In this document: positions 29,901 through 59,809 of the stretch, in pieces
Layout of the letters: each line of letters starts with the position of its first letter
How positions within the stretch are numbered: position 1 is the first letter of the stretch
From: Sinohyriopsis cumingii
Taxonomy: Eukaryota > Mollusca > Bivalvia > Unionida > Unionidae
Assembly (NCBI GenBank): GCA_028554795.2
Contig: CM068842.1
Location: 25,950,590-26,014,589, forward strand
Reading direction: 5' to 3'
DNA: 64,000 nt
The notes under the pieces: model-generated
Told to the model about the DNA's origin: nothing
What the model saw: only the letters and a program-made list of their open reading frames with translations
Database searches by the model: none
Made by a program: the position numbers and the translations under genes

Positions 29901-32900
29901 ATACAAGGTTATGCTGCAGAAGCAGAAATGGACAAAAAGACAAACAGGCTCATCAATAGGTATATTCCCTCATGTTCAACACCCGAGAATTCATGAAATT
30001 CTACAATAATTTTTATATGATTAATTTTGCAATTATGTAAAGAAAATTTATTTGGCAAATGTATATGTTCACAATAATCATTATATGAGACTCACACTGA
30101 TCATTCTCATCAGCTTCTCTTCAAAGTCAGTACTGTTATCAACTATGTCCATGTACGGGTGTCCAACCCAGGCCTGGAAAGGATTACAAAATTATACATT
30201 TATTAACAACTACATTTCTCCTATGATTAGCCCAGAGGCCCCAACTTAAAATATTCTTTCCTAAATTGAGTACGGGCTTCTTGGAATTCTCAAATAAAAA
30301 GATTTGCTTATATCTGGTAAATGTTAGGGACAGACTTGTTGATTACGCTTGTGATTATCATGCGAGAATTCAGGGTATATAACATTTTTGATATTTTGAT
30401 GTCATTTGCTTATACTTATAATCTGACCCCCTATGCCTATAATCGACTACTTAATGACCACATGCTGATACTCATAATTTGACCACCTATGCCTATAATC
30501 AACTACTTAATGCCCACATGCTGATACTCATAATTTTACCCTTATGCCTATAATCAACTACTTAATGCCCACATGCTGATACTCATAATTTGACCCTTAT
30601 GCCTATAATCAACTACTTAATGCCCACATGCTGATACTCATAATTTTACCCTTATGCCTATAATCAACTACTTAATGCCCACATGCTGATACTCATAATT
30701 TTACCCTTATGCCTATAATCAACTACTTAATGCCCACATGCTGATACTCATAATTTTACCCTTATGCCTATAATCAACTACTTAATGCCCACATGCTGAT
30801 ACTCATAATTTTACCCTTATGCCTATAATCAACTACTTAATGACCACATGCTGATACTCATAATTTTACCCCTATGCCTATAATCAACTACTTAATGCCC
30901 ACATGCTGATACTCATAATTTGACCACCTATGCCTATAATCAACTACTTAATGCCCACATGCTGATACTCATAATTTTACCCTTATGCCTATAATCAACT
31001 ACTTAATGACCACATGCTGATACTCATAATTTGACCCTTATGCCTATAATCAACTACTTAATGCCCACATGCTGATACTCATAATTTTACCCTTATGCCT
31101 ATAATCAACTACTTAATGCCCACATGCTGATACTCATAATTTTACCCTTATGCCTATAATCAACTACTTAATGCCCACATGCTGATACTCATAATTTTAC
31201 CCTTATGCCTATAATCAACTACTTAATGACCACATGCTGATACTCATAATTTTACCCCTATGCCTATAATCAACTACTTAATGCCCACATGCTGATACTC
31301 ATAATTTGACCACCTATGCCTATAATCAACTACTTAATGCCCACATGCTGATACTCATAATTTTACCCTTATGCCTATAATCAACTACTTAATGACCACA
31401 TGCTTATACTCATAACACTGGACAACAAATTTTTACAAAAGTCATGTTACTGAAATAAAATTAGTCAATTCTTATCAATTTTTATGTGCTGAACACGAAT
31501 ATGACAGTCAAATTGCAAAATTGGCTCTAGTTTTTTTGTAATCTGCAAGAAATTAATGTTTACATAACGAAATGCATTCCAATAGTAAAAGGTCAACTGT
31601 AATAGCCTACCTATAAAAAATCAAGTCATTGACTACATCTTAGATTTCTTCGCCTGTCTCTTGTACAGCTGTTCGGGAGCATCTCTGAGGAGTGTCCAGC
31701 AGTAGTCAGCCAGCATTGTAGTGGACCATTTTCCCTGGTATCTTTGTTCCATTGTTGCGATATCTTGATGAAAACGTTCGCCGTGTTCATCACTAACAAT
31801 ACCACAGTTGCTAGGAAAGAAATCCAAATGGGAATGAAGGAAGTGAATCTTTAGAGACATATTGCAGCCAAGTTTCTTATACTTCATCAACATGTCTTCT
31901 ACTAGTTCCTTATAGTTTTCTGCCCTAACATTTCCGAGGAAGTTTGTAGAAACTAGGCGAAAAGCATTCCATGCTTGTTTCGCGTCACCTTCCAGCAAGT
32001 TGTTGAACCGGTCATCTTTGAAAAGCTCTCGAATCTGAGGACCCACAAAAACTCCCTCTTTAATCTTTGCTTCGCTGAGTCGAGGGAATTTTTCATGCAG
32101 GTATCGGAATGCTGGCAAAGTCCGGTCAATGGCTTTCACGAAGTTCTTCATCAAACCTAGTTTGATGTGAAGGGGTGGTAGCAAGATTTTCTGAGCCTCA
32201 ACCAGAGCTGGGTGTTGGATATTCTTCTCTCCAATGGCTACATTCTGCCTGTGAGTCCATTCCTTCCTCATGTAGTGCATTTCCCTTGCTCGGCTATCCC
32301 ACTCGCATAAGAAACACATGTATTTTGTATATCCTTGCTGCAGTCCCATTAAAAGGGCAACTACCTTCAAATCACCACAGAGGTGCCAGCTGTACTTGTT
32401 ATACTCAATGGAATTCAGTAGCTGCCTTAAGTTATCGTATGTCTCTTTCATGTGGACAGCATACGCTACTGGAATAGATGGAAGAATGTTTCCATTGTGC
32501 AAAAGCACAGCCTTGAGACTCAGTTTCGAAGAGTCCACAAATAGTCTCCATTCTTGTGGGTCATGAGTGATTTTTAAAGCATTCATGAGGCCCTCAATAT
32601 CGGAACAGAATATCAGATTACTTTCCTTTCTGAAGAAAGGCTCCAATTGCTGGTGGCGCTTTCGATATGCAGTAATTGTGACATCTTCTTCTAGAAGATT
32701 CCATTGTTGGAGTCTTGATCCTAGCAATTCTGCCTTGTTCTTTGATAAGTCCAAATCACGAATCAGGTCATTTAGTTCTTCCTGTGTTATTCTGTGTGGG
32801 GTTGATGATGCACCACAGTGAAAATCTGGATCACTGCATGCTGATGGACCAGGAGAAGAACACGTCGACTCACCTTTGTCTTCGTCAGATGAATCAAGAG

Positions 32901-35900
32901 AATATTCTGCTGGAGGTTCTGGAATAGGAAGTCCCTCACCATGTGGAACTGGTCTCAATGCAGACGGCATGTTTGGGTAGACTATTCTCGACTTCTTTCG
33001 CTTCGTTATTCCGCCGGAAAGAGGAGGAACCAAGCAGAAGTAACAGTCATTTAGGTGGTTGCTTGGCTCTCTCCACACCATTGGGACTGCAAACGGCATT
33101 GATGACCTTTTGCAATTCAACCACTGTGAAAGCTGTGTTGTACATGTAGCACAGCATATATGCGGAGCCCAAGGCTTGTCTTGGTCACCAACCTTGCATC
33201 CGAAGTAAAGATGATATGCCTTCTTCACTTGAGAATTGATACTTTTCTTCTGGTTGGCAAATGTCACTTCCCCACAAATATAGCAAAAATTGTCCGCGGT
33301 ATTAACACACTTTCGAGGCATTACTGTTCTTTATTGTACGTAAATGGATAAAATAATAAGTTTTATGTAACAGTAGCTTGAACTGTCTCGCACAACGTCT
33401 AAAATATTTTAAATGCTGAACCTATCTGATTGGGCTTTATATAGTACACTGCTTACGTCAGCTTCAGCAGCCGCCTGGCATTAGTATAATAGGCCTACAC
33501 ATGTATAGTACACTGCTGACGTCAACTTACTTCAGCAGCCGCATGGCATTATTATTGCATTGCATCAGAAAATGATGCAATCAACTGTGGATGATGTGAG
33601 CATGATGGTATTATGCAATGTTACATCATTATTCCGGATGTTGCTGCAGTCCTACTGGAGAAATTTACACAGTGAAACATAGAAAATGAGGTATATGAAT
33701 ATCTTCAAAACGAGAGCCAATACAAATTTTTCACGGTTATATTCGTGTTCGGCACACCAAAATACTACAGATTAGGGCCTTTTCAAGTCAGTAATGATTT
33801 CACTGTTGACCAGTGTAATTTGACCCACTGTGCCTATAATCAACTACTTAATGACCACATGCTGATACTCATAATTTTACCCCTATGCCTATAATCAACT
33901 ACTTAATGACCATATGCTTATACTCATAATTTGACCCCTATGCCTATAATCAACTAATTAATGACCATATGCTTATACTCATAATTTGACCCCCATGCCT
34001 ATAATCAACTAATTAATGACCATATGCTTATACTCATAATCTGACCCCCTATGCCTATAATCAACTACTAAATGACCACATGCTTATACTCATAATTTGA
34101 CCCCCTATGCCTATAATCAACTACTTAATGACCATATGCTGATACTCCATAATTTGACCCCCTATGCCTATAATCAACTACTTAATGACCATTTGCTTAT
34201 ACTCATAATTTGACCTCCTATGCCTATAATCAACTACTTAATGACCACATGCTGATATTCATAATTTGACCCCCTATGCCTATAATCAACTACTTAATGA
34301 CCAGATGCTGATACTCCATAATTTGACCCCCTATGCCTATAATCAACTACTTAATGACCACATGCTGATACTCATAATTTGACCCCCTATGCCTATAATC
34401 AACTACTTAATGACCACATGCTGATACTCATAATTTGACCCCCTATGCCTATAATCAACTACTTAATGACCACATGCTTATACTCATAATTTGACTCCCT
34501 ATGCCTATAATCAACTACTTAATGACCATATGCTGATACTCCATAATTTGACCCCCTATGCCTATAATCAACTACTTAATGACCGTTTACTTATACTCAT
34601 AATTTGACCCCCTATGCCTATAATCAACTACTTAATGACCACATGCTGATACTCATAATTTGACCACCTATGCCTATCATCAACTACTTAATGACCATTT
34701 GCTTATACTCATAATTTGACCCCCTATGCCTATAATCAACTACTTAATGACCACATGCTGATACTCATAATTTGACCCCCTATGCCTATAATCAACTACT
34801 TAATGACCACATGCTTATACTCATAATTTGACTCCCTATGCCTATAATCAACTACTTAATGACCATATGCTGATACTCCATAATTTGACCCCCTATGCCT
34901 ATAATCAACTACTTAATGACCGTTTACTTATACTCATAATTTGACCCCCTATGCCTATAACCAACTACTTAATGACCACATGCTGATACTCATAATTTGA
35001 CCACCTATGCCTATCATCAACTACTTAATGACCATTTGCTTATACTCATAATTTGACCCCCTATGCCTATAATCAACTACTTAATGACCACATGCTTATA
35101 CTCCATAATTTGACCCCCTATGCCTATAATCAACTACTTAATGACCATTTGCTTATACTCATAATTTTACCCCTATGCCTATAATCAACTACTTAATGAC
35201 CACATGCTGATACTCATAATTTGACCCCCTATGCCTATAATCAACTAATTAATGACCATATGCTTATACTCATAATTTGACTCCCTATGCCTATAATCAA
35301 CTACTTAATGACCACATGCTTATACTCCATAATTTGAACCCCTATGCCTATAATCAACTACTTAATGACCACATGCTGATACTCATAATTTTACCCCTAT
35401 GCCTATAATCAACTACTTAATGACCACATGCTGATACTCATAATTTGACCCCCTATGCCTATAATCAACTACTTAATGACTGCATGCTGATACTCATAAT
35501 TTGACCCCCTATGCCTATAATCAACTACTTAATGACCACATGCTGATACTCATAATTTGACCCCCTATGCCTATAATCAACTACATAATGACCACATGCT
35601 TATACTCCATAATTTGACCCCTATGCCTATACAAATGGCGAAACCCCAAAATGCTATGCTTTTATGACAAGTTTAAAAATGTATGCCCACTTGCCTTTAT
35701 CCCATTATTTTAACCCCTGATGTCACATTCACCATAATTTACTGCCATTAAGTCAATGATTCATTACTTGATGCCCCAATACTCCATTAATTTCATGCCC
35801 CTATGCCTATACCCCACTATGTCCTGTCTAATGAAGTTATAAAATGCCTAAAGCACAGAAAATATGATCCATCCCACTATGGAGATTTTATATGTTCAAC

Positions 35901-38900
35901 AACTATGATAATATGTACCAGTTTTTGGATGTGAAATAACTTTGGTTGTGATGATTTATAGTACCCCCCCCCCCGCATTAAAAGATTAGTGAAATATCTT
36001 TGATCGTAATAACATTAAAATTTTTTATCATTTTAAACACGGAAACTTTTCAACACAAAAAGCTCTCTTCCTTTTCATTGCAGTTAATCCTTGCTCTCGG
36101 TTCTTGAATTCTGTTCTATTTAAACTTAAGCAGTTAAACCACATTGGGCCACACACACAGTAGTCTAGCTTCATTTGCCTGCAAGAAAAATAAATGATGG
36201 CAAAGTATATTTACTTGCCTTCAAGTCCAGAATACATGCAAACAACACAGACTCTGATCTGTTACAGCATAGGGTGCTAGCAGAGTTGGGTTTCTATTGT
36301 TTGTTTTACTGATGATACCCCACAAACTGCATAGACCCAGATCTGCCAGCACATTATGTGATGGCAGAGCTGGGTCTGTACAGTTTGCAGTTGGACTGGA
36401 CTTGAAAACAAGTAGAGATGGTAATAACATGTATCATATGTAAATACAGTAGTATGTGTACTGTCCTGTATTGGAACAATGTATACATAAAGCTATATAA
36501 TATACAAGGGAAAGCCACCCTAACGCAGTAGTTGGGGTACATGACTACCAATGTACCAAGCCAGAATATGGAGAATGAATGAAAATTTGATGAATAAGTG
36601 TACAAACATTGGGGGTGGGAAGGAGGCAAACTGACAGTCAAATGTATAGTACAAGTAATAATTTTACTATCAGCCAATTTATTTAACAGATGGGATTAAA
36701 ATAAATCTATGTTCAATCAAAATTAATTACTTCTGTGTAAGAACATTAATTATGATTTGAAGGCTATAGGTTTCTGAAAGCAAACTGAATTACTCTCACC
36801 TGTCTGTCAGTTTGGCTGATGTTTTGGGTAGTGTCAGGGAATAAAGCAAATATAAGGAAATAATCTGTCCCACTATGTAACCAAGCCTTATCTGAATTTA
36901 TGTTACAATAAAGCATGTTATTTAAACTTCATCATCAAAATGCAACAGTTTTATGATGAGAAATTTTGATTTTTTAAAAATACCAAATTCTGCAATCCCC
37001 TCAATTATCGTTATTTATGAAATGGGCATATGCACATTGTTGCATTGTCTTTTATTTTTTGTGGTATTTCTTACACTAGCTTACAGGGCTCCTGAAAAAT
37101 GGTACAGTGGCAAGATAGATAAATGAGCCAATGCATGAACACATTTTGGTCTCTACTAATAAAAATAGTTAACCAGTCCATTGCAGCACTTTCATGTCAT
37201 GACTTTTCACCTGTGCTGTGATGTTATCCAGTTTCCTGGCAGAGTCAATATCCTCGTGTCGAGTTAGGTGGCCCTCGATGGTGTAAAAATCTTCAGCTCC
37301 ATAGGCTGCTGACACCATATGCAGGATCTGGTTGTAGCGGTTGTCACGGAGATCAACCTCATTCCAGCCATTCTCCTCCTTCATCCTCTTCCAGTCCTCT
37401 ACTGGCAGGTCTGAAAATTTGGTTGCATAATTTTATATCTCCTTATGTATTTACTTATTTTTATTTATTTATAAATTCATCTATTTGTTCTGTGTAAACC
37501 TATTTTTTTTAAATGAATGAAAATCAATCAACATTATACCTTGGGCAAAGAGCAACACCTCGAGCAAAGGGCAGTGTTTACTCCCATATTTAGCCTCCTT
37601 TCACTCCAATCTTGACCCTTATGTTTCATGCTGGCCCATATTTCATCATCAGCTGTAGTTTTGTACTTTAAGAAAATATATTAAAAAAATTATGTGTCTT
37701 TTCTTTTAGTCCTATTTCCCCTAGATTCAGACTCCTGCTGCGCCATCTGTGTAATACATTTTCATATTCATGTGTGGTTATGTACTTTATGGACAAAATA
37801 AACATATTTTGTTTAAAAACTAAGCAGTTGTGAAATCAGTGGTTGGCAAATTAGGAAATGGAACATGATATGAAAATTTAATTATCATATAAGATGAAGC
37901 ATACATAATGAGGTCTTAAATACAATGCTTTGCAAGTCACATTTAAAATAATATATAAAACACATTCCATCTTGTAACACCAATTCTAAATAGGCAGATA
38001 CCCAATTATGTGCAATTATGTCGACGATCGGTGGTAAACTAATATTTAGAGAAATACGGTAGACACTGCCTGATGTATATGGCTAGTGATCAATCAAATT
38101 TCCCTTCAATCCATGGAAATAAACATGCTGCTCTGTATTAAGGCCAATCAGTGTAGCGTGCTCTGTATTAAGGCCAATTAGTGTAGCGGTGGATTGCATT
38201 TGTATTTCAGAGTCCTAAAGTACAGTTGCATCTTAACATTATTTATGCATGCAGTCTCAGCAAATATTTGTCATATGAAACAATCTGAATCTATTCAGTG
38301 CAGAACTTGCCTGATGATATAATGTTGCATAATAGAACCCCCATTTGCTTTGTTCAACCAGATTCTCATGTGACTGAGAGCATATGCTGTGTAAGAGTAA
38401 AACAAATATCAAGGTGCTCAAAAATATGTTTCAATTGAGAATCAGTGAACTAGAACCATGATCTTTTCATGTGCAAAAACAGGTACAGTAGGAATACAGG
38501 TGAAGACCTCTCTGCCATATTATTTCAGTACATAAACTATGGATGAACATAAAGGCACTCAACTATGGATGAACATAAAGGCACTCAACTATGGATGAAC
38601 ATAAAGGCACTCAACTATGGATGAACATAAAGGCACTCAACTATGGATGAACATAAAGGCACTCAACTATGGATGAACATAAAGGCACTCTGTATCAATC
38701 ACTTTCCTTCTACTGGCAATTAACCTCAATTACTCTTCAAATGAACCAATGATACAAGAAACCACAAATGTCACCAAAATGACTGACCAATGATATCAGA
38801 CAGCCACAAACAAATGTCACCAAAAGGACTGACCAATTATATCAATCACAAACATCACCAAAATGACCGATGGTATTAGACAGCCAGAAACAATGTCAAC

Positions 38901-41900
38901 AAAATGGCTGACCAATGATCAAGGTAAAAAAATGTTACAGAATACTGCCAAAAAAACACACCAACATGAACTGATTAGTTACCATAGGTGCTGCTTGTCT
39001 TTTTGTACACTGTATAGAGTCCAACTACAAAATGAAAAGTCACAGATCTGCATAGCATAATGTACCAGCAGATTTGGGTCCATGCAGTTTGTTAGGAATA
39101 ATCAGAAAAAACAACACAGACCAATGTAAAAGTCTCTTCTAGCCTTGCAAATTGTATTTACAGGATTCGATGATGCAAGCAAAAATGAAATCACTGTGTA
39201 TGCTTTTATGTCAACAGCTGTGTAATATTCTTTATGGGTCTTGTCTACTCAACACTATCTGATTCATGTCAGCAAGTATGCTGCATGCACATAGCTCTAC
39301 CTTTCTCAAGTGAATTTGGCCCCAGTGATTATTAACATGAAATAGGCCTATCAACAAATAAGCAACTTTACCCAATTTTTGGTAAACCTCATTTTGTGCA
39401 TTACAATTACAGTTGTATTTGCATAGGCCTTTACCAGATACTGGCAACCACAAAAATCCAACTACAATTTTTCTTTGGTGTATGCCAATTATGTGAATAC
39501 ATGTACTCAAGAACTTGTGCATATAGATTTCCATATAAGTGCTGGTGCTAGTGATCTGCAATTTGTTTAAATTAAAACAGTTGTAATTCAAGAACTCAAG
39601 ATCTGTTCAGTTGTCTGTTGAGTTTTAGCACGAAGTCACTGACAGCCAATAGTGTATCTTGAATTTTAGCACTAAGTCACTGATGGCCAATAGTGTATCT
39701 TGAATTTTAGCACTAAGCCACTGACAGCCAAGTGTAATGTATCCTGAATTTTAGCACTAAAACTGATGGCCAATAGTGTAATGTATCTAAAATTTTAGCA
39801 CTAAGTCAATGATGGCCAATAGTGTAATGTATCTCACATTTTAGCACTAAGTCAATGATGGCCAATAGTGTAATGTATCTCACATTTTAGCACTAAGTCA
39901 ATGATGGCCAATAGTGTAATGTATCTCACATTTTAGCACTAAGTCAATGATGGCCAATAGTGTAATGTACGAGGTTGAAAATATAAGAGATACATTTCTG
40001 AAGGAGGATTTAATTAATGAATTATTAGTTTCAAATTAAGAATTCAGACAAAATGGAAATCATTATTCAAAACATCTGTAGATAATGGGTGAAGATAAAA
40101 TGTAAATGAGAGAAATATTTGGGACTGAAAATTTCATAGTGCAATGTAGATAATGAAGTTAATATGGCAAAACGTCCAAGGCAAAAGGGATAATCTCATT
40201 TTTAAGAATGAATGCATTAAGAATTTTCAGATTTTTTCCTTTTCCTTAGAAATTCCATTTGTCCTCCAGATCCAGGGGACATAGTGCCCTCAACATCCTG
40301 GGTTCCGCATGTATGAAGTGATTAAATAAAAAAAATCATTCCTCTTTATTTTGTTATCTTTAAATTTCTGGTACTATTTGTTTAGTAAATGTTTGATGCA
40401 TCAAGGTTTTTTGTAAATGATAAAATTATTTTTTCCTGTTCCAACACTTAAGGCAATAATAGTATTCTTCCAGTGGCAAAAGGAATACATGTACCATACT
40501 CTATTCTTCCATTAGCAATGGGGATACATATGCCAAGCTGTTTTCTGCTGGCAAAGGGAATACATATACCAAGCTGTTTTCTGCTGGCAAAGGGAATACA
40601 TGTATCAAGCTGTATAATTCAAGTGGTAAAGGGAATACATGTACCAAGCTGTTTAATTCAAGTGGTAAAGGGAATACATGTACCAAGCTGTTTAATTCAA
40701 GTGGTAAAGGGAATACATGTACCAAGCTGTATAATTCAAGTGGTAAAGGGAATACATGTACCAAGCTGTTTAATTCAAGTGGTAAAGGGAATACATGTAC
40801 CAAGCTGTATAATTCAAGTGGTAAAGGGAATACATGTACCAAGCTGTATAATTCAAGTGGCAAAGGGAATACATGTACCAAGCTGTTTAATTCAAGTGGT
40901 AAAGGGGATACATGTATCAAGCTGTATAATTCAAGTGGTAAAGGGAATACATGTACCAAGCTGTTTAATTCAAGTGGCAAAGGGAATACATGTATCAAGC
41001 TGTATAATTCAAGTGGTATAGGGAATACATGTACCAAGCTGTTTAATTCAAGTGGTAAAGGGAATACATGTACCAAGCTGTTTAATTCAAGTGGTAAAGG
41101 GAATACATGTACCAAGCTGTATAATTCAAGTGGTAAAGGGAATACATGTACCAAGCTGTTTAATTCAAGTGGTAAAGGGAATACATGTACCAAGCTGTTT
41201 AATTCAAGTGGTAAAGGGAATACATGTACCAAGCTGTATAATTCAAGTGGTAAAGGGAATACATGTACCAAGCTGTATAATTCAAGTGGCAAAGGGAATA
41301 CATGTACCAAGCTGTTTAATTCAAGTGGTAAAGGGGATACATGTATCAAGCTGTATAATTCAAGTGGTAAAGGGAATACATGTACCAAGCTGTTTAATTC
41401 AAGTGGCAAAGGGAATACATGTATCAAGCTGTTTAATTCAAGTGGTATAGGGAATACATGTACCAAGCTGTTTAATTCAAGTGGTAAAGGGAATACATGT
41501 ACCAAGCTGTTTAATTCAAGTGGTAAAGGGAATACATGTACCAAGCTGTATAATTCAAGTGGTAAAGGGAATACATGTACCAAGCTGTTTAATTCAAGTG
41601 GCAAAGGGAATACATGTACCAAGCTGCATAATTCAAGTGGCAAATGGAATACATGTACCAAGCTGTATTCTTCTATTGGCAAATGGAATACATGTACCAA
41701 GATGTATTCTTCTATTGGCAAATGGAATACATGTACCAAGCTGTATTCTTCTATTGGCAAAGGGAATACATACACCAGGCTGTATTATTCAATTGGAAAA
41801 TGGAATAAACATACCAAGCTGTATTCTTCTATTGGAAAATAGAATACATATACCAGGCTCTATTATTCAATTGGAAAATGGAATACACATACCAGGCTGT

Positions 41901-42581
41901 ATACCTCTACTGGAAAATAGAATTCATATACCAAGTTCTGTTATTCAATTGGAAAATGGAATACATGTACCAAGATGTATTCTTCTATTGGAAAATAGAA
42001 TACACGTACCAGGCTCTATTATTCTATTGGAAAATGGAATACACATACCAGGCTCTATTATTCAATTGGAAAATGGAATACATGTACCAGACTATAAATT
42101 AAGGTATTATACGTACCAGGCTCTATTATTCAGTTGGAAAATGGAATACATGTACCAGGCTGCACTCAACAAGAACATAAGTCATCATATGTAAAGAAAA
42201 ACAGAAGCCTGCCTGCCCACCCACTGGGCTGCCTGTAAAATACAATGCCCCACCATTTTTACTGGCAGGGTATAACTGTATTGGTCTTGTATTCTAAGGG
42301 GTGACCAACCCAACTTAAATGTATTTGTTACTGAGATTATCTGTTTGACTTTTCATTAGTTATCTGTATGGACTTTTCTATAATTTCCTATGCAAAATCA
42401 TTTGTTTTCTTTTCAATTCCTAATTGTTTGGCAAAGGAATTTGTCTGCATACATGCTGTGGCATCCATGACACCGCGGTCACAAATAACAAGGCAGTCCC
42501 GTTTGCAGGTTCGGGCCAGATCAAAGAACGTATTCTCTATCTGCATCATTGTCTGGATCAGGTTCTTCTGGAATGTGAAGC
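7168..42581 (-). CDS. Ttd14: TTD14-like gene (TRPL translocation defect protein 14 family), 5' end missing
   Basis: Eight exons on the minus strand join into about 331 codons with no stop. Every intron is GT..AG and every junction phase agrees. In order they encode [14 protein letters not shown] and [13 protein letters not shown] (the end of the nucleotide-binding domain, Walker-B-like), [121 protein letters not shown] and [12 protein letters not shown], then a stop. This colinear series matches the TTD14 family as I know it: an N-terminal AAA-like P-loop domain followed by a CYTH-like domain. In Drosophila, TTD14 binds GTP and phosphoinositide and is needed for light-dependent trafficking of the TRPL channel in photoreceptors. 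The function in this animal is inferred. The P-loop exon(s) were not found between 42.6 and 64 kb. Introns are 2.6-7.0 kb and full of repeats. Confidence 0.9.
7430..8560. repeat. Dispersed CAAGATGGC-type repeat with internal expansion
   Basis: It starts with ccatttcttctttgaactgt and continues with agattttcaaattagccact, agattggcatcattttcatt and gattttcaagatggaatctg. The centre has expanded into the 30-bp array at 7880-8330. It ends with fragments near 8460-8560. Confidence 0.75.
7880..8330. repeat. 30-bp minisatellite inside the dispersed repeat
   Basis: About fifteen copies of gtgaaagcccatgctgatat with gaaaattcca. The unit equals one segment of the surrounding family (tgaaaaccccatgctgatat plus gactttcca), so it is a local expansion. 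The 10-codon unit explains the overlapping open frames of 187-188 residues on the minus strand; I do not regard these as genes. Confidence 0.92.
8625..8762 (-). mobile_element. SINE family 2 fragment (Meta-domain-like)
   Basis: It has gttgttgttataaggtttaa, atggtggccagtattaatgg, ggaggaagaacccgggcaaa and gaaccaccgacccacgagaa. These match the body of the full copy at 24278-24527. The tRNA-like head is missing. Confidence 0.7.
8930..9100. repeat. Minisatellite, ~42-bp unit
   Basis: Four copies of ttcaatggacttttaccctc followed by aaacagacatttttacagaggc. The third has attgg for aatgg. Confidence 0.92.
9470..9995. repeat. Dispersed CAAGATGGC-type repeat, copy
   Basis: It has ttcaagatggctgacgtggt, ggccatattggaagccagct, gggaccaactaaaccttgga and the shared 3' end with cttatactaatggatagaca and cataagctcttatctattacc. 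A stretch at 9580-9690 (actggcctggatgggtattg, tgtgctattgtgcctcc) looks like an inserted tRNA-like fragment. Confidence 0.65.
10002..10117 (-). CDS. Ttd14: TTD14-like exon: LLAQRDDRH / [14 protein letters not shown]
   Basis: This is a 116-nt exon with acceptor ccttctcag and donor gtaata. It encodes [20 protein letters not shown] and [18 protein letters not shown], plus two bases completed by the next exon to Lys. The acceptor sits in the first unit of a 26-bp tandem array, so near-identical acceptor copies follow upstream in the intron (see findings). Confidence 0.9.
10112..10265. repeat. 26-bp tandem array spanning a TTD14 splice acceptor
   Basis: Six copies of acaatatctgagaaggacat with aacaaa. 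On the minus strand each contains ccttctcag/atattgtt, the acceptor and first bases of the exon at 10002-10117. The terminal copy carries the acceptor used in the reconstruction. Confidence 0.95.
10266..11535. other. Intronic AT-rich sequence
   Basis: I see no exon, repeat array or transposon end beyond short A/T runs. Confidence 0.4.
11536..12145. mobile_element. TTAA-type MITE, degenerate copy
   Basis: It aligns along its length with the elements at 17515-18125 and 63042-63665: the start ttaactcattcagcccc, then atgataccaaataatctgat, gcacataga and ggcatttggaataaagagtg. The left end keeps TTAA. The right end has lost the gggttaatgtgttaa terminus. A long A run (about 11908-11940) lies inside. 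Confidence 0.75.
12146..13267. other. Intronic non-coding sequence
   Basis: I see no gene or recognisable element. Open frames at 12063-12652 on both strands overlap each other and show no family motif. Confidence 0.4.
13670..13705. repeat. Perfect 16-bp hairpin, 4-nt loop
   Basis: The arms tgcaccttctgaatgg and ccattcagaaggtgca flank gcat. It lies inside the hAT-like element. Confidence 0.9.
14050..14250 (-). pseudogene. hAT transposase N-terminal fragment (BED-like finger)
   Basis: The reading includes [15 protein letters not shown], then [20 protein letters not shown] and AHDRK, followed by a stop. The pattern FxxV...CxxC...GG..D resembles the N-terminus of DUF4371-type hAT transposases. 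Only about 60-70 residues of an expected 500-700 remain. Confidence 0.55.
14935..15026 (-). CDS. Ttd14: TTD14-like exon: [20 protein letters not shown]
   Basis: This is a 92-nt exon with acceptor cttttccag and donor gtaggc. Two bases complete the Gly codon, followed by 30 codons: [20 protein letters not shown], then [10 protein letters not shown]. The YTHTIRRPE motif is typical of the CYTH-like part of TTD14. Confidence 0.9.
15353..15665 (-). mobile_element. SINE family 1, copy c (nearly full)
   Basis: It reads tail to head on the plus strand: gtagctttaacaatttttca, gatgtctagccctggggcat, cccagtcacattatcctgac, ctcttaatgctgagcgccaa, ggggattgaacccttgacct (B box, reversed) and tctaaccactaggccact (A box, reversed). 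This copy and the one at 26634 are the best for building a consensus. Confidence 0.88.
15800..16310. repeat. 29-bp minisatellite
   Basis: About seventeen copies of ttgttctctatgcattacac with tattggttg. Variants are ctcgatg, ctcaatg and actactgg. Three overlapping open frames arise from it because the unit has no stop in those frames over three repeats (87 nt); I do not consider them genes. Confidence 0.95.
16575..16985. repeat. 20-bp minisatellite
   Basis: About twenty copies of attgtaaacttgacattagc or attgtaaacttgatagtagt. The two versions alternate over the first half, which gives a 40-bp dimer. Confidence 0.93.
17515..18125. mobile_element. TTAA-flanked MITE (piggyBac-like), copy 2
   Basis: It is 611 bp including TTAA at both ends. 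The termini are inverted: TTAACACATTAACCC on the left and gggttaatgtgttaa on the right. TTAA targets are the hallmark of the piggyBac superfamily (Kolobok also uses TTAA). The interior has no transposase. Two sister copies lie in the window. Confidence 0.85.
18335..18625 (-). mobile_element. SINE family 1, copy d, head truncated
   Basis: It has ttaacgtatctttaacaatt, gtcatatcgctactatgtct, cccagtcacattatcctgac, ttaatgctgagcgccaagca and tgatcgaacccatgacctcc. It breaks off after gcatctgaggca, so the A-box region is absent. Confidence 0.85.
18626..19204. other. Intronic AT-rich sequence
   Basis: I see nothing recognisable in this stretch. Confidence 0.4.
19205..19425. repeat. Imperfect ~60-bp tandem repeat
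   Basis: Four copies of tgtttattgctcagaacctg plus ggtggatgaaaa, with diverged spacers between them. Confidence 0.8.
19640..19772. repeat. 32-bp minisatellite
   Basis: Four copies of ggttcctttcagtggtaatg plus agatatccatga. Confidence 0.93.
19773..21120. other. Intronic sequence without recognised gene
   Basis: Open frames at 20186-20514 and 20592-20830 overlap on several frames and show no family motif. Base composition is slightly richer in GC at 20.4-20.8 kb, so this may be an old retroelement fragment, but I cannot name it. Confidence 0.35.
21121..21217 (-). CDS. Ttd14: TTD14-like exon: [20 protein letters not shown]
   Basis: This is a 97-nt exon running from phase 0 to phase 1. The acceptor is ttattgtcag and the donor gtatgt. 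It encodes [20 protein letters not shown], then [12 protein letters not shown] plus one base of a Gly codon. The basic [10 protein letters not shown] stretch is conserved in the family. Confidence 0.9.
21600..22740. repeat. Divergent ~155-bp tandem repeat, about seven units
   Basis: A recurring block containing aacagctgaaaatacaa, agcatgaaaattnggtcac, tgacctngttttgncatggt, gatgcatccacataccaa and caagatactgag returns at about 21660, 21967, 22120, 22275, 22435 and 22588. The spacing is near 155 bp with strong divergence between units. It looks like an old satellite or an internally repeated element. Confidence 0.75.
22741..24072. other. Intronic AT-rich sequence
   Basis: I see no exon, array or transposon terminus. 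Confidence 0.4.
24073..24277. mobile_element. Possible hAT element fragment
   Basis: It begins CAGATCTGCCAACCCCAA, the CAG..TGCCAAC terminus seen at 13504 and, reversed, at 27770. No matching right end was found; SINE family 2 follows directly. Confidence 0.35.
24278..24530 (-). mobile_element. SINE family 2, full copy (Meta-domain-like)
   Basis: The tail has a gttgttgttg run. The body has ggatttaacgccatttttca, ggcatggcggccagtattaa, ggaggaagaaccctggaaaa and aagctttctcacatacccac. The head, reversed, has cgaatccgagactcaaaccc and tagaccactcggccaatcag. Read on the minus strand, the head gives tggccgagtggtctaaagc, a Ser/Leu-tRNA-like A box. From memory the body resembles the Meta-domain SINEs of bivalves. 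Confidence 0.82.
24735..26390. repeat. Dispersed CAAGATGGC-type repeat, two adjoining copies
   Basis: The first copy runs to about 25300 (ttttcaagatggccactgca, gcagccatactggatgtcct). The second starts near 25310 with aatttccaggaaatgaagat and runs through ttttcaagatggctggccat, ggtggccatattggaattca and taggaccaactagatatcat. It ends with acttatgctaatggatggac, caacaggccatctcatacgc and tgaccagtacagataaaaat. The end-to-start sequence here defines the family's termini. Confidence 0.72.
25755..25895 (-). mobile_element. SINE family 2 fragment inside the dispersed repeat
   Basis: It has ttaatgacatttttcagcca, ggtgaaggaagaagcatgga, gaaccactgacccacatgaa and ggcaagctttcccacatatc. The head is truncated. 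Confidence 0.6.
26406..26501 (-). CDS. Ttd14: TTD14-like exon: [20 protein letters not shown]
   Basis: This is a 96-nt, phase 0/0 exon of 32 codons. The acceptor is cattccag and the donor gtgagttc. It encodes [20 protein letters not shown], then [12 protein letters not shown]. It marks the entry into the C-terminal CYTH-like half. Confidence 0.88.
26634..26962 (-). mobile_element. SINE family 1, copy e (near full length)
   Basis: It has ttaacgcagctttaataatt, gtcatattgctataatgtct, tcccacccagtcacattatt, ctcttaatgctaagtgctca, cctgcaacctcctgcatctg and accctaaccactaggccact. Tail is left and head right. It ends 23 bp from the hAT element at 26986. Confidence 0.87.
26985..27383 (-). pseudogene. hAT transposase remnant (BED-finger tail and FTNFxVE region)
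   Basis: The reading includes [31 protein letters not shown] and [13 protein letters not shown]. This order (finger with D..H.KGK, a low-complexity linker, then FTNFxVExNL) is that of the N-terminus of DUF4371-type hAT transposases. The rest of the transposase, including the catalytic domain, is absent. Confidence 0.55.
26986..27770 (-). mobile_element. hAT-like element with transposase remnant
   Basis: The right end, reversed, reads CAGACCTGCCAACTCTTACG. The left end reads CAGACCAACTCTGACGAG, lacking tgc. The sequence taaggt occurs just outside both ends, a probable remnant of the 8-bp target duplication. The minus strand carries BED-finger/hAT-like sequence (see 26985-27383). Length is 785 bp, non-autonomous. 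Confidence 0.7.
27966..28202 (+). CDS. Candidate first coding exon or small ORF, unidentified
   Basis: It is a 78-codon open frame starting at aatATGGCGGAC, a context common at animal gene starts and a YY1-like element. The predicted peptide begins [20 protein letters not shown] and is not repetitive. A donor (taa/gtaagg) at 28180 could end the exon before the in-frame stop. The sequence around 27880-28200 is the least AT-rich in this intron. I could not identify the family or a second exon. It would run against the TTD14-like gene, inside its intron. Confidence 0.4.
   Translation: MADALASASTSVTTSTSFIELKNAYSTAMLPQILTKFNIGTILSYFLETRADFKPIRESSFELFTSGHAHLSKETVSK
28300..30095. other. Intronic sequence without recognised gene
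   Basis: It holds a two-copy duplication of accaacctcactttgcaaga (about 29308-29380). Otherwise I see nothing. Confidence 0.4.
30096..30173 (-). CDS. Ttd14: TTD14-like exon: [18 protein letters not shown]
   Basis: This is a 78-nt, phase 0/0 exon of 26 codons. The acceptor is cctttccag and the donor gtgagt. It encodes [20 protein letters not shown] and then LMRMIS. The AWVGHPY...DNSTDF motif is a signature of the TTD14 family. The 55-bp satellite and the CACTGG transposon lie in the intron upstream of it. Confidence 0.9.
30407..31415. repeat. 55-bp satellite, left block (about 18 units)
   Basis: Units contain tgcctataatcaactactta, tgcccacatgctgatactca and taattttaccctta. Most carry the gccc/ttttaccctta variant. 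Units at both edges carry the gacc/ttgacc variant of the right block. Marker variants recur at about 30480, 30923 and 31310, giving a higher-order period of 7-8 units. Confidence 0.97.
31633..33321 (-). CDS. Transposase-like protein, 562 aa, single exon, intact
   Basis: This uninterrupted frame from [20 protein letters not shown] to a TAG stop is the only long non-repetitive frame in the window. Residues 5-60 have paired cysteines (C13-x2-C16, C42, C57-x2-C60), like a ZAD-type zinc finger. A further C93-x2-C96 follows, then an acidic Ser/Pro-rich linker (140-175). The C-terminal part looks like an RNase-H-fold transposase: D263 in FVDSSK, D317 in GDLKVV, C336-x2-C339 in [17 protein letters not shown] at 383-389 and E515 in [10 protein letters not shown]. 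These are my candidates for the catalytic triad and accessory zinc site. I know near relatives only as uncharacterised proteins in many arthropod and mollusc genomes. Its place between matched inverted ends shows that it belongs to the transposon. Confidence 0.88.
   Translation of the reverse strand: MPRKCVNTADNFCYICGEVTFANQKKSINSQVKKAYHLYFGCKVGDQDKPWAPHICCATCTTQLSQWLNCKRSSMPFAVPMVWREPSNHLNDCYFCLVPPLSGGITKRKKSRIVYPNMPSALRPVPHGEGLPIPEPPAEYSLDSSDEDKGESTCSSPGPSACSDPDFHCGASSTPHRITQEELNDLIRDLDLSKNKAELLGSRLQQWNLLEEDVTITAYRKRHQQLEPFFRKESNLIFCSDIEGLMNALKITHDPQEWRLFVDSSKLSLKAVLLHNGNILPSIPVAYAVHMKETYDNLRQLLNSIEYNKYSWHLCGDLKVVALLMGLQQGYTKYMCFLCEWDSRAREMHYMRKEWTHRQNVAIGEKNIQHPALVEAQKILLPPLHIKLGLMKNFVKAIDRTLPAFRYLHEKFPRLSEAKIKEGVFVGPQIRELFKDDRFNNLLEGDAKQAWNAFRLVSTNFLGNVRAENYKELVEDMLMKYKKLGCNMSLKIHFLHSHLDFFPSNCGIVSDEHGERFHQDIATMEQRYQGKWSTTMLADYCWTLLRDAPEQLYKRQAKKSKM
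33434..33550 (-). promoter_or_regulatory. Promoter of the transposase gene: TATA box and tandem CRE-like sites
   Basis: On the minus strand a TATATAAAG box lies at 33435-33443, about 115 bp before the ATG. Just upstream is a ~70-bp tandem duplication. Each copy has agtacactgct, an ACGTCA site and cttcagcagccgc. One copy has the perfect CRE TGACGTCA (33517-33524); the other has TTACGTCA (33453-33460). Confidence 0.65.
33816..35640. repeat. 55-bp satellite, right block (about 33 units)
   Basis: Same unit as the left block but dominated by the atgaccacatgct and atttgaccccctatg variants. A marker block (gactccctatg, then ccgtttacttatac) recurs at about 34494 and 34830, about 336 bp apart, so a six-unit higher-order repeat is present. 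Degenerate pieces continue to about 35820. Confidence 0.97.
35641..37210. other. Intronic sequence without recognised gene
   Basis: Degenerate satellite to about 35820 and a C run at 35966. I see no exon until 37211. Confidence 0.4.
37211..37410 (-). CDS. Ttd14: TTD14-like exon: [14 protein letters not shown] segment
   Basis: This is the largest exon, 200 nt. The acceptor is aattttcag and the donor gtgaaaag. Its first two bases complete the Tyr codon and it ends on a full codon. It encodes [20 protein letters not shown], then [20 protein letters not shown] and [20 protein letters not shown], which is highly characteristic of the family. Confidence 0.9.
37411..38530. other. Intronic AT-rich sequence
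   Basis: A short direct duplication of gctctgtattaaggccaat lies near 38131-38178. Nothing else was recognised. Confidence 0.4.
38535..38690. repeat. 26-bp minisatellite
   Basis: Six near-perfect copies of aactatggatgaacataaag plus gcactc. Confidence 0.95.
38748..38915. repeat. Imperfect ~45-bp repeat
   Basis: Four copies of gaccaatgatatcagacagc, then cacaaacaaatgtcaccaaa, with varied length. Confidence 0.8.
39620..39968. repeat. ~47-bp minisatellite
   Basis: Eight copies of ttttagcactaagtcaatga plus tggccaatagtgtaatgtatc. The last three are nearly identical and the first ones diverged, so the array grew at its right end. Confidence 0.93.
40465..42170. repeat. 39-bp minisatellite with 11-unit higher-order repeat
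   Basis: About 43 copies of aagggaatacatgtaccaag plus ctgtttaattcaagtggta. A marker unit (aaggggatacatgtatcaag) recurs exactly 429 bp apart (40902 and 41331), which is 11 units. Units after 41640 diverge to ctattggaaaatggaat. The unit is 13 codons, so open frames run through it on both strands (424 residues on minus). I do not regard these as genes. Confidence 0.97.
42453..42581 (-). CDS. Ttd14: TTD14-like exon: end of nucleotide-binding domain
   Basis: The acceptor reads tgttttgcag and the donor gtatgc. The exon starts with two bases of a split codon and ends with one base (T), which pairs with AC of the next exon to give Tyr. It encodes [19 protein letters not shown], then [13 protein letters not shown], where ICDRG is the Walker-B-like strand. 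It is the most 5' exon I can recognise. Confidence 0.88.
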
Positions 42582-55959: not shown

Positions 55960-58900
55960 AGTGCATTACTGTCATGAGGCTGCTGTTCATTATTGGCATG
56001 GGAATCTTGTACATCATTGTCTTTTGACTGTTGTTCATTACTGTCATGTGAATGTTGTACATCATTGTCATGAAAGTGCAGTGCATCGTAATCATGATAA
56101 TGTTGTCCATTATTATCATATGAATGCTGATCATTACTGTCATATGAATGCTGTCCATTCCTGTCATATGAATGCTGTCCATTATCATGATATGAATGCT
56201 GTCTATTCCTGTCATATAAATGCTGTCCATCATCATCTTATGAATGCTGTCTATTCCTGTCATATAAAAGCTGTCCGTTATCATGATATGAATGCTGATC
56301 ATTACTGTCATATGAATGCTGTCCATTATCATTATATGAATGCTGTCTATTCCTGTCATATAAATGCTGTCCATCATCATCTTATGAATGCTGTCTATTC
56401 CTGTCATATAAAAGCTGTCCGTTATCATGATATGAATGCTGATCATTACTGTCATATGAATGCTGTCCATTCCTGTCATATGAATGCTGTCCATTATCAT
56501 CTTATGAATGCTGTCCATTAATGTCATATGAATGTCGTCCATTCCTGTCATATGATTGCTGTCCATTATCATCTTATGAATGCTGTCCATTCCTGTCATA
56601 TGAATACTGTCCATTATCATCTTATGAATGCTGTCCATTCCTGTCATATGAATGCTGTCCATTATCATCTTATGAATGCTGTCCATTACCGTCATATGAA
56701 TGTTGTCCATTACTATCATATGAATGCTGTCCGTTATCATCATATGAATGCTGTCCATTATCATCATATGAATGTTGTCCATTATCATCATATGAATGCT
56801 GTCCATTACTGTCATATCAATGCTATCGGTTATTATCATATGAATGCTGTCCATTATTATCATATGAATGCTGTCCATTATTGTCATATGAATGCTGTCC
56901 ATTACTATCATATGAATGCTGTCCATTATCATCATATGAATGCTGTCCATTATTATCATATGAATGCTGTCCATTATTGTCATATGAATGCTGTCCATTA
57001 CTATCATATGAATGCTGTCCATTATCATATGAATGCTGTCCATTATCATCTTATGAATGTTGTCCATTATCATCATATGAATGCTGTCCATTAGTGTCAT
57101 ATCAATGCTATCGGTTATTATCATATGAATACTATCCTTTATTATCATATGAATGTTGTTCATTATTGTCATATGAATGCTGTCCATTATTGTCATATGA
57201 ATGCTGTCCATTACCATCATATGAATGCAGTCGATTATTGTCATATGAATGCAGCCCTTTATTACCATATGAATGCTGTCCATTACTGTTGTATGAATGC
57301 TGTCCATTAGTCATATAAATGCTGTCCATTATCATCATATGAATGCTGTCCATTACTGTCATATGAATGCTGTCCATTATCATCATATGAATGCTGTCCA
57401 TTACTGTCATATGAATGCTGTCCATTACCGTCGTATGAATGCTGTCCATTATCATCATATGAATGCTGTCCATTATTGTCATATGAATGCTGTCCATTAC
57501 TGTCAAATGAATACTGTCCATTATCATCATATGAATGCTGTCCATTATCATCACATGAATGTTGTCCGTTATCATCACATGAATGCTGTCCATTATTGTC
57601 ATATGAATGCTGTCCATTACTGTCATATGAATGCTGTCCATTATCATCACATGAATGTTGTCCATTATCATCACATGAATGCTGTCCATTATTGTCATTA
57701 GAATGCTGTCCATTACTGTCATATGAATGCTGTCGATTACTGTCATATGAATGCTGTCCATTACTGTCATATGAATGCTGTCCATTATCATCATATGAAT
57801 GCAGTCCGTTATTGTCTTGTGAATGCAGTCCGTTCAGGGGCAGATTAAAGCTCACTGGTGCCCTAAGCACTGACAAATCTTGGTGCCCCCCTCCTTTCCA
57901 CGTACACCTGGGAAGATAACCCTAGGGTGCACCATGATCAAGAAACAGAACATTATGATCAATTTGCACTAGTTTTATCAATTTTTTTTACAAATCTTCA
58001 TTCGGTTTTTTTCTTTTCACCCTTTTCTCAACTTTGTGGTGCCCCCTTTGGCCCTGGTGCCCTAAGCACGTGCTTAATCTGCTTAATGGTTAATAAGCCC
58101 CTGAGTTCGTTATCATCATATGAATGCTGTCCATTACTGTCATGTGAATGCTGTCCATTATCATCATATGAATGCTGTCCATTATCATCATATGAATCCT
58201 GTCCATTATCATCACATGAATGCTGTCCATTACTGTCATATTAATGCTGTCCATTACTGTCATATGAATGCTGTCCATTATCATCATATGAATGCAGTCC
58301 GTTATCATCATATGAATGTTGTCCATTATCATCACATGAATGCTGTCCATTATTGTCATGTGAATGCAGTCCATTATTATCATATGAATGCTGTCCATTA
58401 TTGTCATGTGAATGCAGTCGGTTATTATCATATGAATGCTGTCCATTATTGTCATGTGAATGCAGTCAGTTATTATCATATGAATGCTGTCCATTACTGT
58501 CATACCATTATTGTCATGTGAATGCAGTCCGTTATTATCATACGAATGCTGTCCATTATTGTCATGTGAATGCAGCCAGTTATTATCATATGAATCCTAT
58601 CCATTATTGTCATGTGAATGCAGTCAGTTATCATCATGTGAATGCTGTCCATTATTGTCATGTGAATGCAGTCCGTTATCATATGAATGCTGTCCATTAT
58701 TGTCATGTGAATGCAGTCTATTATTATCATATGAATACTGTCCATTATTGTCATGTGAATGCAGTCAGTTATTATCATACGAATGCTGTCCATTACTGTC
58801 ATATGAATGCTGTCCATTATCATCATATGAATGCTGTCCATTATCACATGAATGTTGTCCATTATCATCATATGAATGCTGTCCATTACTGTCATATGAA

Positions 58901-59620
58901 TGCTGTCCATTATTGTCATGTGAATGCAGTCAGTTATTATCATATGAATGCTGTCCATTACTGTCATCTGAATGCAGTCAGTTATTATCATATGAATGCT
59001 GTCCATTATTGTCATGTGAATGCAGTCCGTTATTATCATATGAATGCTGTCCATTATTGTCATGTGAATGCAGTCCGTTATTATCATATGAATGCTGTCC
59101 ATTATTGTCATGTGAATGCAGTCAGTTATTATCATATGAATGCTGTCCATTATTGTCATGTGAATACAGTCTGTTATCATATGAATGCTGTCCATTATTG
59201 TCATATGAATGCAGTCCATTATTATCATATGAATACTGTCCATTATTGTCATGTGAATGCAGTCAGTTATTATCATATGAATGCTGTCCATTACTGTCAT
59301 ATGAATGCTGTCCATTATCATATGAATGCTGTCCATTATCACATGAATGTTGTCCATTATCATCATATGAATGCTGTCCATTACTGTCATATCAATGCTG
59401 TCCATTATCATCATATGAATGCTGTCCATTACTGTCATATGAATGCTGTCCATTATCATCATATGAATGCTGTCCATTACTGTCATATGAATGCTGTCCA
59501 TTATTATCATATGAATGCTGTCCATTATTATCATATGAATGCTGTCCATTATTGTCATATGAATGCAGTCCATTATCATCATATGAATGCTGTCCATTAA
59601 TGTCATGTGAATTTTGTGAA
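55960..59620. repeat. 24-bp minisatellite, about 140 units
   Basis: Units are catatgaatgctgtccatta followed by tcat, ttgt, ctgt or ttat. A second class (catgtgaatgcagtccgtta) alternates with the first between about 58300 and 59250, giving a ~48-bp dimer. The array is interrupted by the MITE at 57835-58103. Because the unit is eight codons without a stop, frames of 100-460 residues open on both strands; these are not genes. Confidence 0.97.
57835..58103. mobile_element. hAT MITE, 269 bp, with 8-bp target duplication
   Basis: The ends are CAGGGGCAGATTAA and, reversed, CAGGGGCTTATTAA. Flanking 8-mers agtccgtt (57827-57834) and agttcgtt (58104-58111) differ at one base. The interior holds two direct copies of ctggtgccctaagcac and no coding sequence. 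Confidence 0.9.
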
Positions 59621-59809
59621 TTATTGTCATGCAAGTGGTGTACATTATTGCTATGTGACCTGTGTATTAGACTGTGATGTCCATGTTGTTTAAGTGTCAT
59701 GTGACTTTTGTGCATCATTGTCATGTGAGTTGTACATTACTGTCAAGTCAAATGTTGTGTCCTGAAAAATCATTAATTTCAAAAATCAATCTCTTACTGA
59801 AAAATCAAT

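Follow-up and report, generated by a model that had tools for sequence, protein, structure and literature searches.

A transposon with a single gene inside a satellite array

The window analysed here is a stretch of 64,000 nucleotides from the bivalve Sinohyriopsis cumingii (contig CM068842.1, positions 25,950,590 to 26,014,589 of the forward strand, assembly GCA_028554795.2), and near its middle a satellite array is split by an intact, recently amplified DNA transposon. When the window sequence was re-read, positions 31416-33815 formed one element of 2400 bp, which starts with CACTGGACAACA (31416-31427, plus strand), finishes with TGTTGACCAGTG (33804-33815, plus strand) and is flanked on both sides by the target-site duplication (TSD) TAA (31413-31415 and 33816-33818). 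The exact words at both ends recur in the genome, as described below. The 12-bp inverted ends (CACTGGACAACA on the left; CACTGGTCAACA when the right end is read inward) are identical at 11 of 12 positions, with one mismatch, and start with CACTGG, giving inverted ends of the form 5'-CAC...GTG-3'. Beyond this short repeat the two ends align, with indels, as an imperfect inverted repeat of 119 bp on the left (31416-31534) and 109 bp on the right (33707-33815), whose blocks include one of 35 bp at 83% and one of 15 bp at 93%. These extended repeats are the natural candidate for the region bound by the transposase.

We also joined the two flanks and compared 36 bases of the joint with positions 30001-36000 of the window. 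This sequence matched at 31 places with at most four edits, in each case with TAA once at the joint. These matches, supplied by the satellite, represent paralogous empty sites, and the window thus carries the empty site many times. An initial annotation, made from the letters of this DNA, had described the same length, coordinates, TAA duplication and 12-bp ends, and had proposed an intact, recent transposon inserted into a satellite; re-reading reproduced the former, and near-identical copies, intact frames and the empty sites bear out the latter.

The element carries a single open frame on the minus strand (33321..31633), unbroken and encoding 562 residues plus a stop codon; we refer to its product as P0001. 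Among its remaining ATG frames the longest encodes 82 residues, so that none reaches 100. To the N-terminal side lies a cysteine module (residues 13-96; 33034..33285, minus strand) with the arrangement C13-x2-C16, C42, C57-x2-C60, C93-x2-C96. Conservation was read from alignment A5, which contains stop-free relic pieces and P0001 (30 rows out of the 50 given to A4); alignments A1, A2 and A4 had misplaced fragments, and A3 and A5 were built with fragments omitted. Counting P0001 itself, as in all A5 counts given here, the seven cysteines are kept, in module order, in 3/3, 2/3, 4/4, 4/4, 4/4, 5/5 and 5/5 rows. The module is a candidate zinc- and DNA-binding 'Chapa' domain, a name we take from the available part of PMC4411706. 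It had first been called ZAD-like, a label that goes no further than the C-x2-C spacing at 13/16, 57/60 and 93/96; Pfam lends it no support.

The catalytic residues, all on the minus strand and assigned by motif, stand where the initial annotation placed them in this frame. The first putative catalytic aspartate, D263 (32533..32535), is D in 7/7 rows of A5, and in 6/8 rows of A2, which contains misplaced fragments; the second, D317 (32371..32373), is D in 10/11. They are followed by the C(2)C motif C336-x2-C339 (32305..32316; C in 8/9 and 8/10), an LH motif at L384-H385 within LPPLHIKLG (32167..32172; both residues in 14/14), the H(4)H motif H493-x4-H498 (31828..31845; H in 4/7 and 5/7) and the putative catalytic glutamate E515 (31777..31779; E in 4/6). 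Retention across the older relics is thus weakest at H493 and E515, and the rows that lack H493 or H498 are decayed relics. In P0001 the spacing is D-x18-C-x2-C...H-x4-H...E. RAG1 and Transib share this D-x18-CxxC...HxxxxH...E layout, and judging from the motifs, D263, D317 and E515 would form the triad of an RNase H core.

P0001 matched no Pfam family at E values up to 10 (the HMMER filters discard most very weak matches) and no NCBIfam model, and sequence searches of the PDB returned no significant relative. One of 37 fragments gave a Pfam match to DUF1258 (E 0.13), which we regard as noise; weak Pfam rows were absent for eight larger pieces. In the viral, phage and prokaryotic collections searched we found no Chapaev3 proteins. 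Two short degenerate patterns did hit three viral and nine prokaryotic loci there, but these are chance matches, because tblastn of P0001 against the 12 gave a best E of 0.093.

Thousands of near-identical copies and their target sites

We searched the genome assembly (2,904,868,851 bases, or 2.90 Gb, in 1138 contigs) for exact words of the element. A 28-mer from the left end occurs 2421 + 2461 = 4882 times, a 29-mer from the right end 2455 + 2506 = 4961 times and an internal coding 30-mer 2334 + 2398 = 4732 times, with reversed controls at 0 throughout. These counts are independent of any score ranking and leave copies with an altered word uncounted. Approximately 4,900 copies of 2.4 kb amount to about 12 Mb, or about 0.4% of the genome. 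The numbers of end words and coding words are nearly equal, which indicates that small non-autonomous derivatives with these exact ends are rare.

The pairing of ends was followed on one contig (C1), using the first 100 left and the first 100 right ends listed there, which share a span, the first 49.5 Mb or so of the contig. Of 95 left ends in this span, 92 have a same-strand right end as partner; the distance is exactly 2400 bp in 74 cases, 2392-2402 bp in 89, and 1540, 2295 and 2364 bp in the other three. Three left ends and eight right ends have no partner, and one of these right ends sits at the span's edge. Copies bounded by the same ends, which the initial annotation had proposed as a check, are therefore abundant, so that its first refuting condition, copies of the gene without these ends, does not overturn the reading, and deletion derivatives are apparently rare, most copies being full length where examined.

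In a DNA search, all 26 matches listed have 99-100% identity, and 22 span positions 1-2400. In a protein search, the best 77 of 9588 first-look candidates were scored, and all 77 match at 100% (rounded) with no stop; the list follows protein score and is therefore biased towards intact copies. The 562-residue frame is present in 18/25 full copies from the DNA search and in 27/27 from the protein search. After removal of one repeated entry (L027, which is L001), these searches yield 55 distinct loci, 52 of them full length and three (L024, L035 and L046) incomplete. No 20-mer is common to the 60-bp flanks of any two of the 52 full copies, which are thus separate insertions. An assembly artefact, in which uncollapsed haplotypes or duplicated contigs would inflate the copy number, is accordingly a very remote explanation: L017 and the incomplete L024 do have the same right flank on contig C107, but no two of the 52 share a flanking 20-mer and the 95 copies are spread over about 49.5 Mb of one contig. 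L017 and L024 lie about 337 kb apart and could reflect a duplication or an assembly duplicate; L024 runs into N. At L046, one copy has inserted in opposite orientation into another, at 187 bp from the left end of the host copy, and is flanked by TAA on each side.

The 52 full copies carry 0-11 substitutions relative to the majority sequence, with a mean of 0.147% in this biased sample. Six have no substitution, five of which are identical to the majority sequence. The window copy departs from it at three sites, each in common with other copies. Mean substitutions are 5.7 in the 25 DNA-search copies and 1.5 in the 27 protein-search copies; the DNA search passes over very common words and may thereby prefer odd copies, and the protein search is biased towards intact ones. 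As the two sources differ, the true mean divergence is uncertain but small. Singletons in all 52 copies (42 nonsynonymous, 38 synonymous and 5 stops, versus 58.8, 20.8 and 5.1) would suggest constraint, which we set aside because 27 of the 52 come from the list ordered by protein score. Among the 25 DNA-search copies the values are 42, 19 and 5 versus 42.4, 14.8 and 3.6, with 19 non-coding changes versus 25.2; new changes in these copies look near neutral, with no clear sign of selection.

A perfect 3-bp duplication flanks 47 of the 52 full copies, while the flanks match over 4 bp in 0/52 and over 5 bp in 1/52. The consensus target is A-TWA-T (W being A or T): TWA accounts for 32/47 duplications, the preceding base is A in 37/47 and the following base is T in 37/47. 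The duplications are TAA (18), TTA (14), ATA (4), TAT (4), TTG (2) and TGA, CAA, AAA, CTT and TGG (1 each). At one locus (L008, 1501-3900) the flanks repeat as 5-bp TTACA, not as 3 bp, which could be chance, mutation or an atypical stagger.

Placement among Chapaev3 and related transposons

We consider it very probable that the element is an autonomous cut-and-paste transposon of the Chapaev3 type, and it most plausibly represents a new family within that described group, placed by published descriptions and not by sequence. We file it there because every published point that can be checked fits, TWA only as a preference. According to the available text of Zhang, Feschotte, Han and Zhang (2014; PMC4079192), Chapaev3 elements have 5'-CAC...GTG-3' ends, transposases with C(2)C, LH and H(4)H motifs, and a 3-bp TSD, TWA between A and T, in all members examined and confirmed by empty sites; most are encoded in one exon. 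The window element has CAC...GTG ends, a 3-bp TSD and all three motifs together with D, D and E, and its 2400 bp and 562 residues resemble the full-length Merrow and Garfield elements (table 1 of PMC4079192 gives 2289-2455 bp and 554-562 aa). Kapitonov and Koonin (2015; PMC4411706) assign Chapaev3 to the Transib superfamily, as one of its clades, and describe an N-terminal 'Chapa' zinc domain in it, and excerpts of two further papers name Chapaev3 in blowfly (PMC3630058) and Hydra (PMC12220107).

The CMC-type affinity suggested at the outset was right in substance. The accompanying idea of a group without a name does not hold, as PMC4079192 and PMC4411706 already describe such ends, TSD, target preference, size and motifs for Chapaev3. 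An annotation gap does exist, in that no Pfam or NCBIfam model matches the protein, but the group is already named; what the assignment supplies is a name and boundaries for proteins that these databases do not recognise. Overall, the observation made in the initial annotation is confirmed and its interpretation partly supported.

The closest described families are Merrow and Garfield, for which we rely on the portions of PMC4079192 available. Merrow (Chapaev3-1_PM, from lampreys) is alike in size (2451-2455 bp; Merrow_PM, 2451 bp, 78 + 484 = 562 aa) and, as a Chapaev3 element, in its CAC...GTG ends, its C(2)C, LH and H(4)H motifs and its 3-bp TWA target. However, Merrow has two exons and more than 254 copies, whereas the window family has one exon, about 4,900 copies, a looser target rule and few deletion derivatives. 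Garfield, from silkworm and other insects, is also alike (Garfield_BM has 2289 bp and 556 aa, and its motifs and TSD agree); it has two exons, more than seven copies in silkworm and a 97-copy family of miniature inverted-repeat transposable elements, whereas derivatives of the window family are rare. The highest copy numbers in table 1 of that paper are >254 for a full element (Merrow_PM) and 281 for a non-autonomous family.

Several points weigh against this placement. The assignment goes by published description. Size is weak evidence, a likeness and not a definition, because Conan_ET, also Chapaev3, has 1865 bp and 461 aa (PMC4079192, table 1, as far as available). Fifteen of the 47 duplications depart from TWA, and five of the 52 full copies (L007, L008, L021, L039 and L052) have no perfect 3-bp duplication. 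An AlphaFold model from the 30-row alignment has a mean pLDDT (predicted local distance difference test score) of 51.6, with residues 260-302 and 327-383 below 50; both AlphaFold runs are of low confidence over the core, the model does not display an RNase H core, and fold searches gave no significant match. Finally, present-day activity has candidate status: thousands of near-identical, mostly full-length copies make this a strong candidate for an active transposase, as far as sequence can tell.

The most serious alternative, although we think it improbable, is that the element belongs to a separate, undescribed group of CMC-like DNA transposons that is merely Chapaev3-like in its ends and target. 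The lack of Pfam and NCBIfam matches and the target rule, looser than published, would fit such a group, as would a single exon versus two in Merrow and Garfield, yet most Chapaev3 elements have one exon and the protein has the same length as that of Merrow, 78 + 484 = 562 aa (PMC4079192, available text). The checkable published features of Chapaev3 fit as well, with TWA as a preference only.

Other transposon groups need to be weighed against the Chapaev3 assignment. CACTA (EnSpm), another CMC branch, has CACT(A/G) ends and a 3-bp TSD, and thus resembles the window element in ends and TSD length; the window protein is short and has no Pfam match, so no TNP2-type model. PIF/Harbinger elements also make 3-bp TWA duplications, but such an origin is very unlikely here despite the agreement in TSD length and TWA consensus. 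The CACTGG start, the 5'-CAC...GTG-3' ends and the C(2)C and H(4)H motifs all speak against it, as does the absence from the element of a second frame longer than 82 aa for a Myb-like partner. No CACTA or PIF/Harbinger Pfam transposase model matches P0001 (E up to 10).

A Transib element proper is just as unlikely: the CAC start and the D...D-x18-CxxC...HxxxxH...E layout are what one would expect of it, but Transib makes a TSD of 5 bp, and a 3-bp duplication in 47/52 copies versus a 5-bp match in 1/52 contradicts this. The TSD of Chapaev proper, at 4 bp, is not seen either (4-bp flank match in 0/52). The window element thus shares CAC ends and the D-D-CxxC-HxxxxH-E layout with Chapaev proper and Transib/RAG1, but differs from them in its 3-bp TSD and in having no second gene-sized frame and no Pfam RING match. 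In the accessible text, Chapaev in general has a 3- to 4-bp TSD (PMC4079192), and Chapaev proper and Transib/RAG1 fall in the same assemblage as Chapaev3 (PMC4411706).

Amplification, older lineages and the surrounding repeats

How could a Chapaev3 family have reached this scale? The N-terminal cysteine module and neighbouring parts of the protein would most likely bind the imperfect end repeats of about 110-120 bp, and the D263-D317-E515 core would cut just outside CAC...GTG. A zinc site made of C336, C339, H493 and H498 may steady this core, as in RAG1/Transib. The ends would then be joined to an A-TWA-T target with a 3-base stagger, and gap filling by the host would produce the 3-bp duplication. 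Copies might be gained if the gap left by excision is faithfully repaired from the sister chromatid, or if excision takes place just ahead of the replication fork. Alternatively, the small number of derivatives could simply reflect an invasion so young that derivatives are still to arise; the data are compatible with all three.

We put forward only tentatively, as less likely than its opposite, that about 4,900 mostly autonomous copies arose in a short time by copy-preserving multiplication, with derivatives at a few per cent, through an unusually faithful or replication-coupled gain by a transposase that is still active. If this is true, the family would offer a convenient system for studying a RAG-related recombinase. 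What sets it apart is how large and how pure the burst is, the group itself being already described; a limited literature search gave no obvious match among transposon bursts, although one may well have been published. Binding, cutting and target choice in a relative of RAG/Transib would be directly testable with this element, which could possibly also serve as a gene-delivery tool.

The same genome holds older relatives. A search for LPPLHIKLG that avoided the codons of the window family matched seven places (control 0); a pattern meant to detect a sister family through different codons for a 10-residue transposase motif gave 0 matches. From four of the LPPLHIKLG places, together with the loci of two further searches, we define two older lineages, B and C. 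Lineage B (L059-L066, L079 and L080) consists of fragments with about 38-78% identity to P0001, mostly 50-65%. Its gene-upstream end reads CACTGGTCTAYAGCC at L059, L060 and L065, and its gene-downstream side at L063 reads CACTGGTCTATA, adjoining TA-rich flanks; the two ends come from different copies, and a four-mismatch match in L082 was disregarded.

A search with a lineage B query scored 150 rows, of which 48 resemble the window family (judged by eye; 60-63% identity, tied scores), 38 of them with a stop-to-stop frame of 564-566 codons and 10 with shorter ones, leaving 102 rows. Five further rows (62-63%, frames of at most 252 codons) were not counted among the 48 because they are probably relics, as L079, the one retrieved, proved to be. 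Lineage C (L057, L058, L081 and L082) has fragments mostly at 42-54% identity, and all 150 rows scored with its query match at 53-100%. Among the B and C copies seen there is no full frame, the longest being 468 codons (L081). Only the newest lineage is thus intact among the copies seen. Judging from their decay, the three lineages differ in age, which suggests that Chapaev3-like elements colonised this genome more than once.

The two arms of the satellite that was hit, delimited by tandem-repeat analysis, are unlike. The left arm (30407-31415, unit about 55 bp) consists mostly of 55-bp monomers (TTTTACCCTTATG, GCCCACA) and the right arm (33816-35631, unit about 56 bp) mostly of 55-57-bp monomers (TTTGACCCCCTATG, GACCACA); the final monomer of the left arm has a right-type ending. 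Across the window (1-64000), ARAGORN in its bacterial setting found no tRNA and Rfam gave no match at gathering score. Tandem repeats of many unrelated units make up about 21% of the window (13,587 bases, Tandem Repeats Finder), and all remaining open reading frames of at least 150 aa fall within such arrays. The largest array spans 55981-59630 (24/48-bp unit), followed by the right satellite arm at 33816-35631 and by 40468-42089 (39-bp unit).

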